This document shows, piece by piece, positions 1,075 through 63,154 of a DNA stretch of 64,000 nt (within the stretch, counting starts at the first letter, position 1; every line of letters begins with the position of its first letter). The notes under the pieces are model-generated. The model was not told the DNA's origin. It worked only from the letters and a program-made list of their open reading frames with translations, and did no database searches. This DNA is from Bryum argenteum (lineage: Eukaryota; Streptophyta; Bryopsida; Bryales; Bryaceae). The stretch spans positions 12,311,495 to 12,375,494 of the forward strand of contig CM073328.1 of NCBI GenBank assembly GCA_037043015.1, read 5' to 3'. A program made the position numbers and the translations under genes.

Positions 1075-1498
1075 AGGCATTTTACTTTTTACACGGCTGC
1101 ATGCACGAGGGATAACGCGTGTGTGTGGGGTAAGCGTTCGTAGCAGCTATCAAGGAGGATGGAGGAGGGATAATGAGCTTCTAATTTTTTGATGTATAGA
1201 AATTAAATGCCAAGGAGTAGGCTTCCAAGGGTAACTTGGGGGCGCAGACCTCAAATTCGAATTCGAGATTATCAAGAACGGCCTTGGGAGGTCCCTACGG
1301 ATTCTAGGGTGCCTCCTTGGTAGCTGCCACGAACCATTGCCCGTGTGCGTGGTGATGCTCCGCTGTGTGGGGGGGTAGAAAGTCGTGGCTGGGAGGTGTG
1401 ATGTATGTGTGACGAGGGTTCGCGAGTATGGTCCCATTGTTGTCTACTATTCCTACTCCTATCTTGTCCGTTGAGCTCTCCAATCCCAGCGCAATCAT
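1075..1498 (-). pseudogene. 5' fragment of OSGEP/Kae1 (KEOPS tRNA t6A ATPase), interrupted by a MITE
   Basis: On the minus strand an ATG at 1498 opens about 50 codons. They contain [32 protein letters not shown] and [13 protein letters not shown], the N-terminal ATP-binding and histidine-rich segment of Kae1/OSGEP, which with its KEOPS partners makes the tRNA modification t6A. A 215-bp MITE (1128-1342) then breaks the frame. Beyond it the reading HALSLVHAAV resumes the family sequence and stops at about 1075, where the VAC14-like repeat begins. No later exon is seen leftwards. I infer a truncated, transposon-disrupted gene fragment. A living gene would need the MITE removed by splicing and exons beyond the window edge. 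The family assignment is from memory of plant OSGEP and is strong at motif level. Confidence 0.75.
1128..1342. mobile_element. MULE-type MITE (core family copy 1)
   Basis: A 215-bp element has imperfect inverted ends (GGGTAAGCGTTCGTAGCAGC on the left; reverse complement of the right end GGGCAATGGTTCGTGGCAGC). It is flanked by 9-bp duplications GTGTGTGTG (1119-1127) and GTGTGCGTG (1343-1351), 8 of 9 matching. Its interior (about 1180-1300) carries a core that recurs in the elements at 50137-50405 and 62692-62962: AATTTTTTGATGTA, then AGGAGTAGGCTTCCAAGGGT. It lies inside the OSGEP fragment. Confidence 0.8.
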
Positions 1499-10871: not shown

Positions 10872-12628
10872 TTCATAGGTGATTTACACCATCACTACAC
10901 AGGTATACATAGTCAGATCCCAATGATCCTCTGCAGGGATGGGTGGTATACAATGATCTTTGTACAGACAGGTCAAACTGAAGCTTTCTCTTACACATGC
11001 TCAGACCAGGATCCTGCTGATCCTTGTGTCTCGTTGATTTACATGGATATACTGCTTACATATGTGAACTAACCTTTTGTTTAGTAGTACACATGTGTAA
11101 GGAGATTTGCAATCGGCAATCACAATGTCTACATTTTTACCCTGAAATGCCAGGGATGTAAATATTACAGACAGTGGACATATCTGGGGACAATCAATCT
11201 GTTTCGAATGTCCACATTTGTAAGCAGTCTACATCCAATTAAATGGTACCCTGGAAGGCCAGGGATTTTGAAATCTGAGTCTCTTTGCTTTGTGAATGAA
11301 AATCTTTATTCCATTGTATATGTTTGCTATACAAGTTGTACAAAGTCTTAGTCTTTCGCAGGTTTTTTTGTGATTCTTTCAAGTGCGTCGATTGCACTTT
11401 TGAGACAAAAACTGACAACATTGTGGACTACACTTGCAGATTAAGCAACTCTAGAGAATAAGTGGGGACGGTACAGTTTCTATGGAATCCGTAGAGTCAT
11501 TTGATTGAAACTGTTAAATGGGTGCCTGGCTTCACTTTAATCAACATAACCACCAATTATCTAACGACTCTTAAGCTTCTAAATTCACCATTGGGCCGTT
11601 GGCGCTCTTGATAACTGATCACTTCCTGCATTACTTGACCTGCCTGTGAAAGTATTCACTACCACATCGAAGTTGTAACTACAGTCTCAACTCCAGGTAC
11701 TGAAACTGTCTCTTTATTTCAATCGTTGAAGCCCATATTCAGTGTGTGATTTCTGGTTGTGAAGGTGATCATAGTCTAGTTTGCATTTCCAGACTATGAT
11801 CATTGTCTTGAAAGTATCTGTGGAGAGGATTCTAGTCTGCGCAACTATGAACATCAATCTTACTTCATTTCCTGTAGAGTTGCATCCTGTAACTAGGATC
11901 AAGGAAAAGCTGTAAGTTCTAGAATAGAGGCCAGGTTTATTTCTTCTAGAGTGCCTTCCAACAAGGATTACGTATAGTTTTCATTTGATGTTACATCTTG
12001 ATATTTCATGGCAACCAAGTTACATCGTGAACTAGAATCAAGGGCTTATAGTAGTTTGATGTTGATAATCATCAATGTAGTTTACTTGATGGTATTACAT
12101 GCAATGGGCTCTTGCTCTTTGTTTGCAGCACACGAACTGTAAGTAATTTTGGTTTGATGTTGTATGTTGATGTTTCTTATTTCATACCACTATCATGTTC
12201 ACCTTGAGAGGGGGTTATTAGTCATGCCGTACATTAAGTTGAACGATTGCTATACTTACACCACTCTTAATTAGGGTTTGGAGTTTTCCTTCTTGATCTT
12301 TGTTGCAAGTTGTATCTAAATCAGACTGCATATTGGTTTGAGGCTCTGATCATCATCAAGGTGACATGCTCAATAATTGTTAGTATCAAGCTCGTTCTGG
12401 AGTTACCAAGGGATTCATTTTCCCGGAAACGGGCAAAATTCGTGGGAGATTGCATCATTTCAAATCATGAACTTCTCTTGATTTAGTTACAAGATTTAGA
12501 ACTCAAGGAAGTTCTACAGGTGCACCTCAAATTGCACACCCTGACATCCAACTCCTGAGCACATTGAAACACAAAAGTGAAAGCAGAATTGACTTTCTCT
12601 TGAATAATTATTGACTGTGCGGATATGC
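10872..12628. other. VAC14 3' UTR and intergenic DNA
   Basis: The first few hundred bases after the TGA at 10869-10871 are presumably 3' UTR. No convincing poly(A) signal stands out. The rest has only short shadow frames and no recognised repeat. Copies of GCAGCAGCTGTGATC lie about 215 bp apart in the last VAC14 intron (about 10412 and 10627), a small local duplication. Confidence 0.4.
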
Positions 12629-13180
12629 ATGGCAATTGAATCGATATCCAACATGCTCTTTTCTGGCGTGCAGACTGAATCTGTTGCGGCAATCCCTTCT
12701 TGCAAAGCTCATCAAATGAAGGCAACACGAGGAAGAGGGAGAGGGAGAGGCAGAGGAGCAAGTGCCGCAGCAGCAGCCGCAGCAGCCATGAAGGCAGCAG
12801 CTTCATACGTTCCCGAGCAGCAGCAGCAGCAGCAGCAGCAAAGAACAGACTCATCAGATCCCACAACGGGAGCAGGAGGAGGAGGAGGGTACACAGAGAC
12901 AGACTTGCGGGCAGCAATGAACGCACACGGCGCAGGACTATTAGGAGCCCTGGGCCAGCAGATGAACGCCCACTTGACAAGCTTGACCATGTTCGAAAGC
13001 GCAACAACCAGTCTCCGGGGCCAGTGCCAGAACATGGTGGTGGAGATCGGGAAACTCCTGGAAGCCATCGAGTTGTACCAGAACACCCATGCTCAGGTCA
13101 TGATTCATGCTGCTCTGCTGCGACAGATTGTTGCGGAATTCGCACAGCATATTCATAACTCGCAAGTCTTCGGTGCATAG
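12629..13180 (+). CDS. Unrecognised Ala/Gln-rich small protein
   Basis: A 183-aa frame opens with ATG at 12629 and closes with TAG at 13178. Order of features: an ordinary N-terminus of about 30 residues, an RGRGRGRGRG run, an alanine run, QQQQQQQQQ, a GGGGG linker (about residue 90), then about 85 residues without low complexity (YTETDLRAAMNAHGAGLL to AEFAQHIHNSQVFGA). These look helical and could form a coiled coil. The start could also be ATG 12716, just before KATRGRGRG, and TTTTCTGGCGTGCAG before 12675 looks like a splice acceptor, so an upstream exon is possible. No family is recognised. The non-repetitive C-terminal block is the main argument for a real gene; the CAG and GCN tracts also keep other frames open, so doubt remains. 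Confidence 0.5.
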   Translation: MAIESISNMLFSGVQTESVAAIPSCKAHQMKATRGRGRGRGRGASAAAAAAAAMKAAASYVPEQQQQQQQQRTDSSDPTTGAGGGGGYTETDLRAAMNAHGAGLLGALGQQMNAHLTSLTMFESATTSLRGQCQNMVVEIGKLLEAIELYQNTHAQVMIHAALLRQIVAEFAQHIHNSQVFGA

Positions 13181-49527: not shown

Positions 49528-50490
49528 GTTCTCTACTTTCGTACAAAGCTCAAACTTACACAGGACGAGCCTTGACTGAACCTTTCACTAGCCTCCCTGG
49601 CAGAACCCAATTGCAAGGTCATCTGCAACACAGATCAGTTTATAAAGGCCTCCGGCGACAGAGGTTAGCTAGGCAGCAGCAGGGAGGGGACGGGCGGACG
49701 GCAGAGGGGGCCAGCAGGGATGAAACGACAAACGTCAGTGTGAAAAACGTACAGTTCTCTACTTTCGTACAAAGCTCAAACTTACACAGGACGAGCCTTG
49801 ACTGAACCTTTCACTAGCCTCCCTGGCAGAACCCAATTGCAAGGTCATCTGCAACACAGATCAGTTTATAAAGGCCTCCGGCGACAGAGGTTAGCTAGGC
49901 AGCAGCAGGGAGGGGACGGGCGGACGGCAGAGGGGGCCAGCAGGGATGAAACGACAAACGTCAGTGTGAAAAACGTACAGTTCTCTACTTTCGTACAAAG
50001 CTCAAACTTACACAGGACGAGCCTTGACTGAACCTTTCACTAGCCTCCCTGGCAGAACCCAATTGCAAGGTCATCTGCAACACAGATCAGTTTATAAAGG
50101 CCTCCGGCGACAGAGGTTAGCTAGGCAGCAGCAGGGGCCTAAGGGTTCGCAGCAGCTACCAAGAGGATGAAGATGAGGATGAGCGTTGGATGGGGAGGGG
50201 TAAAGGAGCCCCCTAATTTTTTAGTGTATTGGTTTAAATTGCCAAGGAGTAGGCTCCTGGAGTAATTTGGGGCCGCAGGGCCCATTTCTGAATTCAAAAT
50301 CATCAAAAATGGCCTTGGGGGGGTTCAAATTAAAATTCCAGGGATGGGAGGGAGGATGGGGTGGCACTTTCTCATCCTCTTGGTAGCTGCTGCGAACCCT
50401 CACCCGCAGCAGGGAGGGGACGGGCGGACGGCAGAGGGGGCCAGCAGGGATGAAACGACAAACGTCAGTGTAAAAAACGTACAGTACAGC
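49528..50490 (-). repeat. 226-bp direct repeat, three copies, carrying a TATA-like box
   Basis: Units start at 49528, 49754 and 49980 (GTTCTCTACTTTCGTACAAA), with an exact period of 226 bp and almost no divergence. Each has TTTATAAA (49639, 49865, 50091) and GGGAGGGGACGGGCGGACGG. The third is split by the MITE at 50137-50405 and resumes at 50406-50490. Near identity means the amplification is recent. The minus-strand ORF at 49147-49407 lies just downstream, so the unit may be its promoter. Confidence 0.9.
50137..50405. mobile_element. MULE-type MITE (core family copy 2)
   Basis: A 269-bp element with 34-bp ends differing at three positions (inner part AGGGTTCGCAGCAGCTACCA perfect on both sides). 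It is flanked by the 9-bp duplication GCAGCAGGG (50128-50136 and 50406-50414). The two intact 226-bp units give the empty site. The core matches 1128-1342 and 62692-62962. Confidence 0.92.
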
Positions 50491-50544: not shown

Positions 50545-51245
50545 CCAGAGAATGTCGGAACTCCTCCCCCGGATGTACTGTGGAATTGCATGGCAACTTA
50601 CGATATATTCCATTACAACTTACCATATATAGGGATTGGAGGTTTTCCAATAATTGGTGTTCTTCTTCTCCTTGAGAAGCCCAAGAAGGATTGTGTGTCC
50701 CAATATATAAAGTTGTCGTGCAACATGGCCGCCCCTGCTGGGGTGAGTTTAAAGTAGGGCAGCGAGCTGGTCACGGAGCCCCTCGACCTTACCTGCCCGC
50801 CCGATCCCCTGCCCGGCCAAAACATCCATTTTTTTTGTTTTTTTTGCGTTTTGGGATGCCCTCTTATGTTTTTTTAGAATTTTTGAGTTTACAAGTGGGG
50901 CCTAAGACCCCGTTTTACAATTGGAAGTGCCTCATGGAGCTATGTGTGACATCAACCATTAAAAATTAGGGGGCAAATATACCCCAATTTTTATTTGTTG
51001 GGTGGGGATTATTTGCCCCATTTGCCCCCACGAGAGGCTCTGTGACCACCTCGCTGGCCATCTTTAAGCAAATCCGCCCTGCTGTCAGTAGTTCAACAAT
51101 CTTCTTGCAATGATACTGTGCAGTATATCCGGGTGAGGGTTGCCACGTATTCTACTATTTGATAGAGCTCTGATGTACTGAACAAAGCAGAAGTCTCTTG
51201 CACGTTGCTTGGAGTGTAGGGGGATTTGGGGAGCTCTATTATTGA
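50545..51245. repeat. Dispersed repeat R, plus-strand copy
   Basis: Inverted relative to 62525-63090: CTCCCCCGGATGTACTGTGG, AATTGCATGGCAACTTAC, GGATTGGAGGTTTTCCAAT here, and AAGCAGAAGTCTCTTGCA, TGCTTGGAGTGTAGGGGGAT at 51186-51230. The last part is the unoccupied version of the site where the MITE at 62692 sits. The middle (50680-51050) holds unrelated GC-rich and T-rich DNA. Confidence 0.7.
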
Positions 51246-51854: not shown

Positions 51855-54044
51855 ATGGCTCCGAAACAAGCAAATTTGTCTAAGTTTTTGTACGGGGGCT
51901 GCGTGAATGTGAGCGGAATCATAGAACTAGTGACGATCTGGAGCAGGGATGTGACTTTGGGCAACCCGTAGGCACACACACGGATAATGGCGGTTCCAAG
52001 TTGTATGGGGACAACGTCTTTCTCGGGACTGCCTCAACAAAACCTGCTTCGAGCAGTAACAATGATTTGCAGGTTTTAGACCCAGCAATTGCTAGTCTAT
52101 TGGTGGAGGCAGCGATGCTAAGAGACAAGGGTAAATTAGAAGAACCAACAATTTCAAGATTCATGGGCGGCAAGGTTGCCCTGGGCGGAGTCTGTACTTG
52201 GGAGCGACGGTCATGTCTGTCAGGTAAGATGGACTGTTTGCACGTCTGTGGAAGGCCGAGAGAAGCTGTTGGTTCTGAAAATCGATTCTCTTTGGAAACA
52301 TGCTGGAAGAAGGGGGGCGGTTGTAGAAGTTGGGAAGATCAAGAAGGGCCAACACTTCTTCTTGAGCACGTGTGCACATGCTAAGAATGAGAGGATCTTC
52401 TTCGCTAGAGGTGGCAGCGAAACCGTTGTTCAACTGCTGCAGGAAGGTGCCACAACATATAAGAGAAAGAAGGGTGTCCAGTTCCAGGTGGTGTTTAGCA
52501 TTCAAAGGCATGGTTGCCCAATGACCAATTACGAAGATCAACGTGCATTGCTAGGGCAGCTCATAGTGTCGGGTATGCCAAAAAAACACTGGAGCATGGC
52601 AAGCTGGTGGAAGATTGTTAATTACTTGGTCGAGTTGCTCTCTGAGCAGACAAAGAAGGAATTGAAAGAAGCTCCATTTCTCTCCACTAGCGCATATGAG
52701 GTAACCACCATTGGCCACAAGTCGTGGCTCTCTTTGCACTGTTATGTTCCTGTGGGGTTCACTCGGATCTCTATTCTCTCAGTTTACAGCGTTTAGTGAA
52801 GGGTAATGGGACTGGTGCCGTTACCAAAGTGATAATTGCCCATATGTTCCATCATGGAGACTTCGATGCACATTCCCTTGCTTCAAAGCTTGTATCTTTC
52901 GGTGCAGATGGTGTTTTGGTATTCCAAGAATTGAGAAGCGAAGTTACTAAACAACTACAATGTAAACATGCTCCATAGATGCTCTGAATACATTGTATGG
53001 CACATCGAACCAACATCGCTGTGCACCCAGTATCTAATCTCTCCATTGTGGTAAAGTTGAAACTTTGTGTTAGGCAATGTATGTCTACTTTGCAGCGTCG
53101 CCCAAGAAGCACTTGGGGTTCCAAAGACTTGCTGACCTCATGGAAACAAAGGGTAGTTTCATGCTTCGGAATGTGAAGACCGGGTGGATCAGCCTACTCG
53201 ATCCACTTAGACGTGTCTTGTCGGAGTACAAGACCTTGATCGTGAAAATGTGCGAGGACGCGGCTGTCAAGGAGTCTGGCATCAGAGCCAGACAAGTTGT
53301 TGCAAGGGAATATGCTCGTATCAACTACGAGTTGCTCATGGATATTGAGACTCTCCTTGTCCTCCCATGTTGATGCCTCTATTGGAGTCTGTCAACTTGC
53401 TCATAAATTTTACACAGTCCAAACATGCTTCTGTGTCCGATTATATTGCGGCTGTGAAAATATGCCAAGCCGAGCTCTTCATGATGTATATCGACACTGA
53501 TTTGTGATTTCAGCCCCAGCACTTTCAGCATTTCTGCAATGTCGTAAATGACCACTCTTTCGCCATCTCCCAAAAGTGCGTTGTCGACTTGAATGATGGC
53601 AGTGAGGCACTTAGCTTCAGACCACACATACTCGACGCACAAGTTGTGCAGCCAAACAAGTTTGAAACTCACCTAAATATTCAAGATTTTAGTTTCTACC
53701 TTGCCTTGCAGTTTCAGCCTTTTGACCTCAATCAAGCTTGAGTATCGTACTAACTGACCCTTCTGAATGTGTTTGCAGGTTTGAAGCTCACTGTAAGTAG
53801 GGCGGTCTTCGAAGAGGCTGTAAGTATCGTGAAGGCACAATGCCGTGATGTTGCAGAGCAGCTCATTGGTGAGCTAGACAAAGGGTTTCGAAAATTAGAT
53901 ATGATGAATTCCTTGAGGATCGTGTTTCCACGGTTTTGGTTGCAGTCAAATACGGATGAAATTTTTCTAGTGTACATGAAAACAATTTGTGATCACTTCA
54001 GTGTTCCTCGAAGCACTGGTGGTCGCACGTCCGATGGACCTTAG
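51855..54044 (+). pseudogene. Decayed zinc-finger/hAT-type transposase gene (DUF4371 / ZNF862-like group)
   Basis: Collinear pieces in changing frames. An N-terminus MAPKQANLSKFLYGG (51855) is followed by a finger-like segment with VEGREKLLVLKIDSLWKHAG (about 52240). Next come VQFQVVFSIQRHGCPMTNYE, KHWSMASWWKIVNYL and TSAYEVTTIGHKSWLSLHCY (to 52745). Then ASKLVSFGADGVLVFQ (52890), IHCMAHRTNIAVHPVSNL (53000), LADLMETKGSFMLRNVKTGW (53130), and a C-terminal block DMMNSLRIVFPRFWLQSN (53900). The gene breaks by frame changes near 51925, 52170, 52745 and 53070 and by stops at about 52976 and 53370. A splice-like TTTGCAG precedes 53780. The order matches multi-domain plant proteins in which the transposase core is kept. 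No terminal inverted repeats were found, so it may be a lone gene copy rather than a whole transposon. Confidence 0.75.
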
Positions 54045-62498: not shown

Positions 62499-63154
62499 AA
62501 TGCAGAAGTCTGTGTTATCTGTTCACAGAATGATTGGAAAACCTTCAATCCCAATACAATATAAGTTGTCATGGAATATATGGTAAGTTGCCATGATGCA
62601 ATTCTACTGTACATCCGGGCGAGGAATTGCGACTTGTCATCTTCTCAGTAATAAAGCTCCCCAAATGGCCAAATCCCCCTAGACTCCAAGCGGATCACTG
62701 TATTTTAGTGGTACGAGCGTTTTTCGGAGCTCAGGGAGGGGACGGGTAATGAGCCCCCTAATTTTTTGATGTACAGGCTGTAAATGTGAAGGAGTAGGCT
62801 TCCAAGGGTAATTTGGGGTCGCAGACCTCAAATTTGAATTCAAAAACATCAAAATCGGTCACCAGGGGGCCCAAATGGAGAATTCCACAAATTGTGAGGA
62901 AAAAATCCCATTGGCTGATGGGCTCTCCGAAAAACGCTCGTAGGAGTGAAATACAGGGATCCACTCCAAGCAGCCTGCAAGAGACTTCTGATTTGTCCAG
63001 CACATGAGACTTTTACTGTTGGCTAACTTACCATATAATTGGGATTGAAGGTTTTCCAATCACTCTGTAAACACATACGACAGACTTCTGCACTGTTCAT
63101 GAGACATTCGCACTGAACAGTGCAGAAGTCTGTCGTATCTGTTTACTGAGCGCT
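62499..63154. repeat. Dispersed repeat R, minus-strand copy, split by a MITE
   Basis: Segments correspond inverted to 50545-51245 (GATTGGAAAACCTTCAATCC, AGTTGCCATGATGCAATTCT, CTCCCCAAATGGCC). A second partial copy of its start follows the MITE (GGCTAACTTACCATATAATT at 63020). Positions 63062-63150 form a hairpin with arms of about 37 bp (CGACAGACTTCTGCACTGTTCA) and a short loop. Confidence 0.7.
62692..62962. mobile_element. MULE-type MITE (core family copy 3)
   Basis: 271 bp, ends GGATCACTGTATTT and inverted GGATCCCTGTATTT, continuing after a short mismatch to a perfect TACGAGCGTTTTTCGGAG on both sides. Perfect 9-bp duplication ACTCCAAGC at 62683-62691 and 62963-62971. The related site at 51203-51230 has a single uninterrupted copy. 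Core as in 1128-1342 but with quite different ends. Confidence 0.92.

Follow-up and report, generated by a model that had tools for sequence, protein, structure and literature searches.

The ends of MITEs normally serve to define and name their families and to link them to a mobilising transposase; the copies are dated and placed on trees from the whole sequence. The usual pattern among MULE-derived MITEs is that of common ends with differing interiors. The elements described here are like MULE-derived MITEs in their 9-bp TSD, their mostly G-initial inverted ends, their length of about 215-335 bp and their dozens or more of near copies per family. They differ in being reversed, since one interior is found under unrelated ends.

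Chimeric copies of Galileo, in Drosophila, were recognised as mosaics from the way their variable sites fall into runs and from separate trees of two parts; Galileo has a 7-bp TSD and, in two copies, TIRs of 575-610 bp (available text of PMC2775673). The P-MITEs of Anopheles gambiae resemble the present elements in being modular, with ends and interior of different origin, and ectopic repair was proposed for them (available text of PMC1562414). The multiple-TIR MULEs of tomato resemble them in that the end architecture was altered in evolution, recombination being considered and left open in the available text (PMC3310237).

Elements of the window and their end classes

The window, that is, the whole stretch of 64,000 nucleotides of Bryum argenteum DNA that was analysed, belongs to contig C8 of a genome of 258.8 Mb in 25 contigs. 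The coordinates, TSDs and motifs that an earlier note on this DNA gave for three elements (E1, E2 and E3) were borne out on direct reading and are collected in Table 1. The motifs quoted there as ends are present but are not the termini, lying 8-20 bp internal to the true ends, which start 5' with GGGTAAGC in E1, GCCTAAGG in E2 and GGATCACTGTATTTTAGTGG in E3. The common core of the three is homologous, as the note had claimed, and is not due to chance by genome matches against a reversed control: the core 23-mer AAGGAGTAGGCTTCCAAGGGTAA has 527 genome matches at up to 3 mismatches (reversed control 0), and a wider core pattern, with no more than 2 mismatches allowed, has 948 (0 for the reversed pattern). 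A fourth core-bearing MITE, overlooked in the earlier note, is located 335 bp away from E2.

Table 1. Core-bearing MITEs of the window, with their TSDs and cores (window positions)
Feature	Position	Strand	Remarks
E1, F1a-family MITE	1128..1342	+	T1 ends, E3-type core
E1 TSD, 9 bp	1119..1127 and 1343..1351		left GTGTGTGTG, right GTGTGCGTG, one mismatch; direct reading
E1 core	1165..1294	+	107.4 bits to a profile that contains the E1 sequence itself
Putative F3-origin tract within E1, TAATGAG to AACGG	approx. 1171..1281	+	placed from family majority sequences
E2, F2-family MITE	50137..50405	+	T2 variant of T1 ends, F2 core
E2 TSD, 9 bp	50128..50136 and 50406..50414		GCAGCAGGG at both
E2 core	50194..50324	+	129.7 bits to a profile that contains the E2 sequence itself
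E3, F3-family MITE	62692..62962	+	T3 ends
E3 TSD, 9 bp	62683..62691 and 62963..62971		ACTCCAAGC at both
E3 core	62740..62871	+	122.3 bits to a profile that contains the E3 sequence itself
Fourth core-bearing MITE	50741..51075	-	T5 ends, GGATTTGCTTAAAG.. / GGGTGAGTTTAAAG..
T5 window element TSD	50732-50740 and 51076-51084		one mismatch
T5 window element, diverged core	50870..50984	-	26.0 bits, full profile; 24.3 bits (weak), profile without T4, T5 and T6; maximum over 300 shuffles 14.7

E1, E2 and E3 are members of three separate repeat families, one each. Among the best 40 candidates scored for each, the relatives of E2 include copies at 100%, those of E1 are at 91-94% and those of E3 at 97-87%. 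Lengths are mostly 215-216 bp in F1a and F1b, 269 bp in F2, 255-271 bp in F3 and about 258 bp in T4. The elements are short, uniform in length and present in many copies, and are non-coding as judged from length alone; the F1a family probably comprises hundreds of copies. The 60 loci fetched by place came from listed exact matches to the core 23-mer, out of the 527, so that the sample leans towards F1a and young F3, and F1b was recovered with a pattern aimed at E2-like cores. The 157 core records, which contain repeats of one place, include 98 with TSD-supported ends; the rest were left out of the mosaic comparison, and 3 of 34 F1a and 3 of 15 F1b elements were dropped for length. Also left out were two F1a copies, L012 and L040, whose length had caused them to be filed wrongly as F2; they have grown to 292 and 280 bp, apparently through an internal repeat.

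The T1 ends, those of F1a and F1b, are GGGTAAGCGTTCGTAGCAGCTACCAAGGAGG on the left and GGGCAATGGTTCGTGGCAGCTACCAAGGAGG on the right; the T2 ends, those of F2 (the family of E2), are a close variant of T1, and the T3 ends of F3 are GGATCACTGTATTTTAGTGGTACGAGCGTTTTTCGG. TIRs are about 30-40 bp long, the inverted ends being mostly G-initial. In fetched copies with ends located by sequence, perfect 9-bp flanking repeats were identified in 26 of 46 T1 copies (35 at up to one mismatch), 9 of 9 T2, 6 of 7 T3 and 2 of 2 T5. All 18 T4 matches have them; these are read as 9 loci, each counted once per strand, since the pair of patterns used for T4 equals its reverse complement. At lengths of 6-12 bp other than 9, one perfect flanking repeat was found in total (8 bp, T1). 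For T6, a TSD-guided search gave a 9-bp TSD in 3 of 5 fetched loci; in a sixth locus (L129/L157) a TSD was looked for and none was visible.

Left and right ends align with each other better than all 300 shuffles in T1, T2, T3, T4 and T5, and better than all 500 shuffles in the T6 copy L172. Alignments between classes (T1/T3/T4/T5/T6) are no better than shuffles, the lowest value being that of the left ends of F1a and F3 (40 of 300 shuffles as good), whereas for the left ends of F1a and F2 no shuffle of 300 was as good. This comparison agrees with the earlier statement that the ends of E1 and E2 are related and those of E3 are not. The wording that the three copies had exchanged their terminal repeats is too strong for all three, because E1 and E2 belong to one end class. 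One F2 copy, L080 (C2:8803700-8804900), carries the F1a-type left terminus GGGTAAGCGTTCGTAGC and not the GCCTAAGGGTTCGCAGC of E2, perhaps by end conversion.

Make-up of the F1a family

The family of E1, F1a, is at the level of sequence a chimera, formed by the ends and right inner flank of F1b around about 110 bp of F3. F1b is a T1-ended family with the right inner flank as in F1a and an E2-type core. Aligned with F1b, F3 and F2 and read from its left end, F1a is F1b-like up to about GGAGGGG, F3-like from TAATGAG to about AAAAACGG and then F1b-like through the right end. The majorities compared were those of 31 F1a, 12 F1b and 7 young F3 elements. At the 70 two-state sites that separate the F1b and F3 majorities, F1a agrees with F1b at 49 and with F3 at 21, matching neither at 2 further sites, and the F3-like sites cluster in the F1a core, with a run reached in 0 of 100,000 permutations. 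As the T1 and T3 ends are non-homologous and part of these sites is arbitrary, the run test was repeated on homologous columns only, where F1a agrees with F1b at 17 and with F3 at 20 (0 of 100,000 permutations). A stricter left limit gave 13 F1b and 20 F3 sites (2 of 100,000), the left breakpoint having 1-5 sites on strictly homologous columns. Since end class and core type were the criteria that defined F1a and F1b, the mosaic test describes their make-up and is no blind discovery of groups.

The F1a core matches F3 in 104 of 110 columns and F1b in 86 of 109, and the outer 36 bp of F1a match F1b at 33 positions on the left and 36 on the right. Among the fetched T3 elements, L056 and L026 come closest to the F1a core, matching it at 105 of 112 positions (E3 at 102); the alignment score is 98, that of F1b being 68 and that of F2 65.5. 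Core orientation relative to the ends is constant in 46 of 46 elements with a T1 end pair (34 F1a, 12 F1b, 0 inverted); the end pair used for finding them presets the left and right forms, and core orientation alone was free.

The core tree comprises 58 rows and 131 columns, with 14 of the 31 F1a rows taken, 6 of the 9 T4 loci missed by the word filter and 25 of the 53 inner branches open. F1a is grouped with F3 (96/89) and F1b with F2 (98/99), and forcing F1a and F1b into one clade was rejected (p-AU 0.000165). The core tree is in conflict with the end classes for F1a and F1b, but single clades of the T1+T2-ended elements (p-AU 0.068) and of the T3-ended elements (p-AU 0.058) were not rejected.

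End pairs were assigned in 128 core occurrences, after removal of identical ones and of scores under 60, by which T4, T5 and T6 were left out. The pair is T1-T1 in 94 and T3-T3 in 18; one end was unassigned in 14 and both ends in 1. The assignment threshold of 12 is loose: among 60 shuffled flanks, 5 score at least as high, the maximum being 14. L111 was considered as a T1/T3 hybrid and rejected, its T3 score of 13 being within the shuffled null, and no convincing T1/T3 mixed element was identified among the 128 occurrences in the fetched loci. Smooth intermediates linking the ends of E3 to those of E1 and E2, which the earlier note had named as the sign of plain divergence, were therefore not encountered in convincing form in the fetched part of the genome. 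As read from the sequences, E1 and E3 differ by exchange and not by divergence, and the core appears to be what moved. The two-breakpoint mosaic, the p-AU rejection and conflicting core tree, ends at shuffle level and the lack of convincing intermediates all argue for it and against smooth divergence of these two elements. The idea of exchange put forward earlier is partly borne out, but for E1 and E3 its direction is better reversed, the family of E1 having apparently kept its ends and received an E3-type core.

Deeper relatives and MULE affiliation

Diverged relatives of the core are, by their profile scores, placed within at least three further unrelated end types, T4, T5 and T6. Against a profile from the F families only, T4 (GCCGGACACTAAATCCAATCCATG) has a core match of 48.1 bits, where 1000 shuffles reach no more than 9.2. 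With the profile lacking T4, T5 and T6 and the best of 300 shuffles in brackets, the scores are 35.5 bits for T5_L168 (9.7), 38.9 for T6_L171 (16.8), 35.4 for T6_L172 (8.2) and 28.0 for T6_L174 (7.7). None of the 40 candidates scored for T4 falls below 93%, and none of the 40 scored for T5, the window copy among them, falls below 80%; the T6 pattern has 154 matches, T5 included.

End replacement may account for the older differences among T1, T3, T4, T5 and T6. An older MITE lineage may have swapped its ends more than once, or its core may have been captured by the ends of several MULEs. A tentative and rather doubtful extension would take the core as a persistent lineage, one MITE lineage having worn at least five unrelated end classes while the mobilising transposase was switched, with new families arising from end change or core grafting and not from internal deletion of an autonomous element.

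The elements are MITEs, non-autonomous and with 9-bp TSDs, and probably depend for their movement on MULE transposases acting in trans. The genome contains 52 matches to MULE transposases (PF10551), one of them backed by a 56-bit Pfam MULE hit. The MULE affiliation proposed in the earlier note is favoured by TSD length and end features, but a transposase-bearing element with such ends was not found in the 8 of 52 MULE loci covered with 1.5-kb flanks, where T1-T5 ends were looked for and a de novo search for TIR plus TSD was run. The largest contig, C1 (44.1 Mb), contains 4 exact core 23-mers and 7 exact wider-core matches, and carries 10 of the 52 transposase matches despite its few cores; contig C2 (34.6 Mb) contains 19 exact core 23-mers and 59 exact wider-core matches. 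Two ORFs of the window, at 12611-13180 (189 aa, with a glutamine-rich stretch) and at 52176-52796 (206 aa), have no Pfam match at 0.001.

Origin of the F1a family and comparison with known systems

The best explanation, with a probability of roughly 0.78, is that these are two-module MITEs with separate histories, F1a having been made by an F3 core entering a T1-ended element and then amplified, with the deeper end changes uncertain. Ectopic gene conversion, or a repair-template or template-switch event, would have copied the F3 core into the T1-ended element, using the pre-existing homology of the F1b and F3 cores. Conversion in place between homologous cores is suggested because F1a equals F1b in length, core orientation is constant and the breakpoints fall at aligned positions. 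The F1a product, with both T1 ends intact, would for that reason still have been able to transpose, and would have done so and amplified. Products with mixed T1/T3 ends would presumably be immobile, so that only core exchanges with both breakpoints inside would spread. A donor direction from F3 to F1 is suggested because T3 ends are also found on old, diverged cores (F3o, at 14% from the majority in 5 elements of mixed subfamilies, against 3.5% for F1a); it is an argument and no test, since neither the T1+T2 (0.068) nor the T3 (0.058) clade was rejected. No transitional copy of the core exchange was caught among the fetched elements.

Among the alternatives, independent capture, in which unrelated MULE ends each acquired one mobile or host-derived core in a Pack-MULE-like manner, is unlikely but the strongest. 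Five end classes without detectable similarity around one core speak for it, and for the mosquito P-MITEs it was proposed that the P-element ends were retained and the space between them filled with ectopic sequence (available text of PMC1562414). Yet F1a does not depart from F1b, whose core is homologous, in its usual length of 215-216 bp, in the order of its ends or in the orientation of its core, which would be unexpected after a new capture, and free cores are rare, with 1 of 128 occurrences in the fetched loci having neither end assigned. Nested insertion followed by deletion, one MITE having jumped into another and left the core and ends of different elements, is clearly less probable. 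Nesting does occur in this material: L137 (C11:2911886-2914909) has a T4 MITE within the T1 end of an F1a copy, with the TSD CTACGAACC equal to T1 end sequence, and apparent nests are an F1 adjoining a truncated F3 in L089 and two T3-type cores in L102. The F1a majority, however, has no leftover second ends, the length of F1b and breakpoints at aligned positions.

A functional core, that is, a structured RNA or DNA element required for transposition around which the ends were replaced, is very improbable. Most of the 31 core sequences that were aligned have a central stem, TGGGG..CCCCA, and 2 of its 5 pairs are changed on both sides in at least one sequence, but the covariation term is -0.01, single-strand fold z-scores are -1.66, -1.00 and -1.08, no Rfam family was found in the window at gathering thresholds and rate variation over the core columns is mild (gamma shape 2.6), so that a covarying central hairpin or conserved structured RNA core was not supported. 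Slightly less credible still is plain divergence of a single MITE family with a conserved core and faster-drifting ends. The core and the 9-bp TSDs are common to all elements, and T4, T5 and T6 differ in core as well as ends, which makes divergence compatible with these classes. It does not fit F1a and young F3, whose cores are so closely alike while their ends are at shuffle level, nor F1a and F1b, identical in end class with cores in conflict on the tree, nor the 128 core occurrences with their lack of a convincing T1/T3 intermediate.

The entry of an F3 core into a T1-ended element bears on how such families are recognised. Ends and core disagree here, the F1a core deriving from a family with unrelated ends, and families of this kind would be merged or misdated if whole elements were clustered. 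The question whether new MITE families are founded when a surviving interior changes its transposase partner is thereby made testable. In the open-access literature searched, mainly titles and abstract openings, no description of one MITE interior under unrelated TIRs was found, and the available text of PMC2775673, PMC3310237, PMC2213677 and PMC1562414 contains no shared interior under unrelated ends.

The mosaic make-up of F1a is known by the same kind of evidence as that of the Galileo copies (available text of PMC2775673). The present elements are not of Galileo type, having TIRs of about 30-40 bp and a TSD of 9 bp, and Galileo, of the P superfamily, differs in that its recombination was ectopic, within the family and at inversion breakpoints (same text). 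In F1a, unlike Galileo, a core tract apparently crossed between families of unrelated TIRs and the chimera was amplified afterwards. The tomato MULEs have extra TIR copies and not unrelated TIRs on a common interior (available text of PMC3310237). The mosquito P-MITEs, finally, are the mirror image of the elements described here, with parental ends kept and interiors unrelated (available text of PMC1562414).
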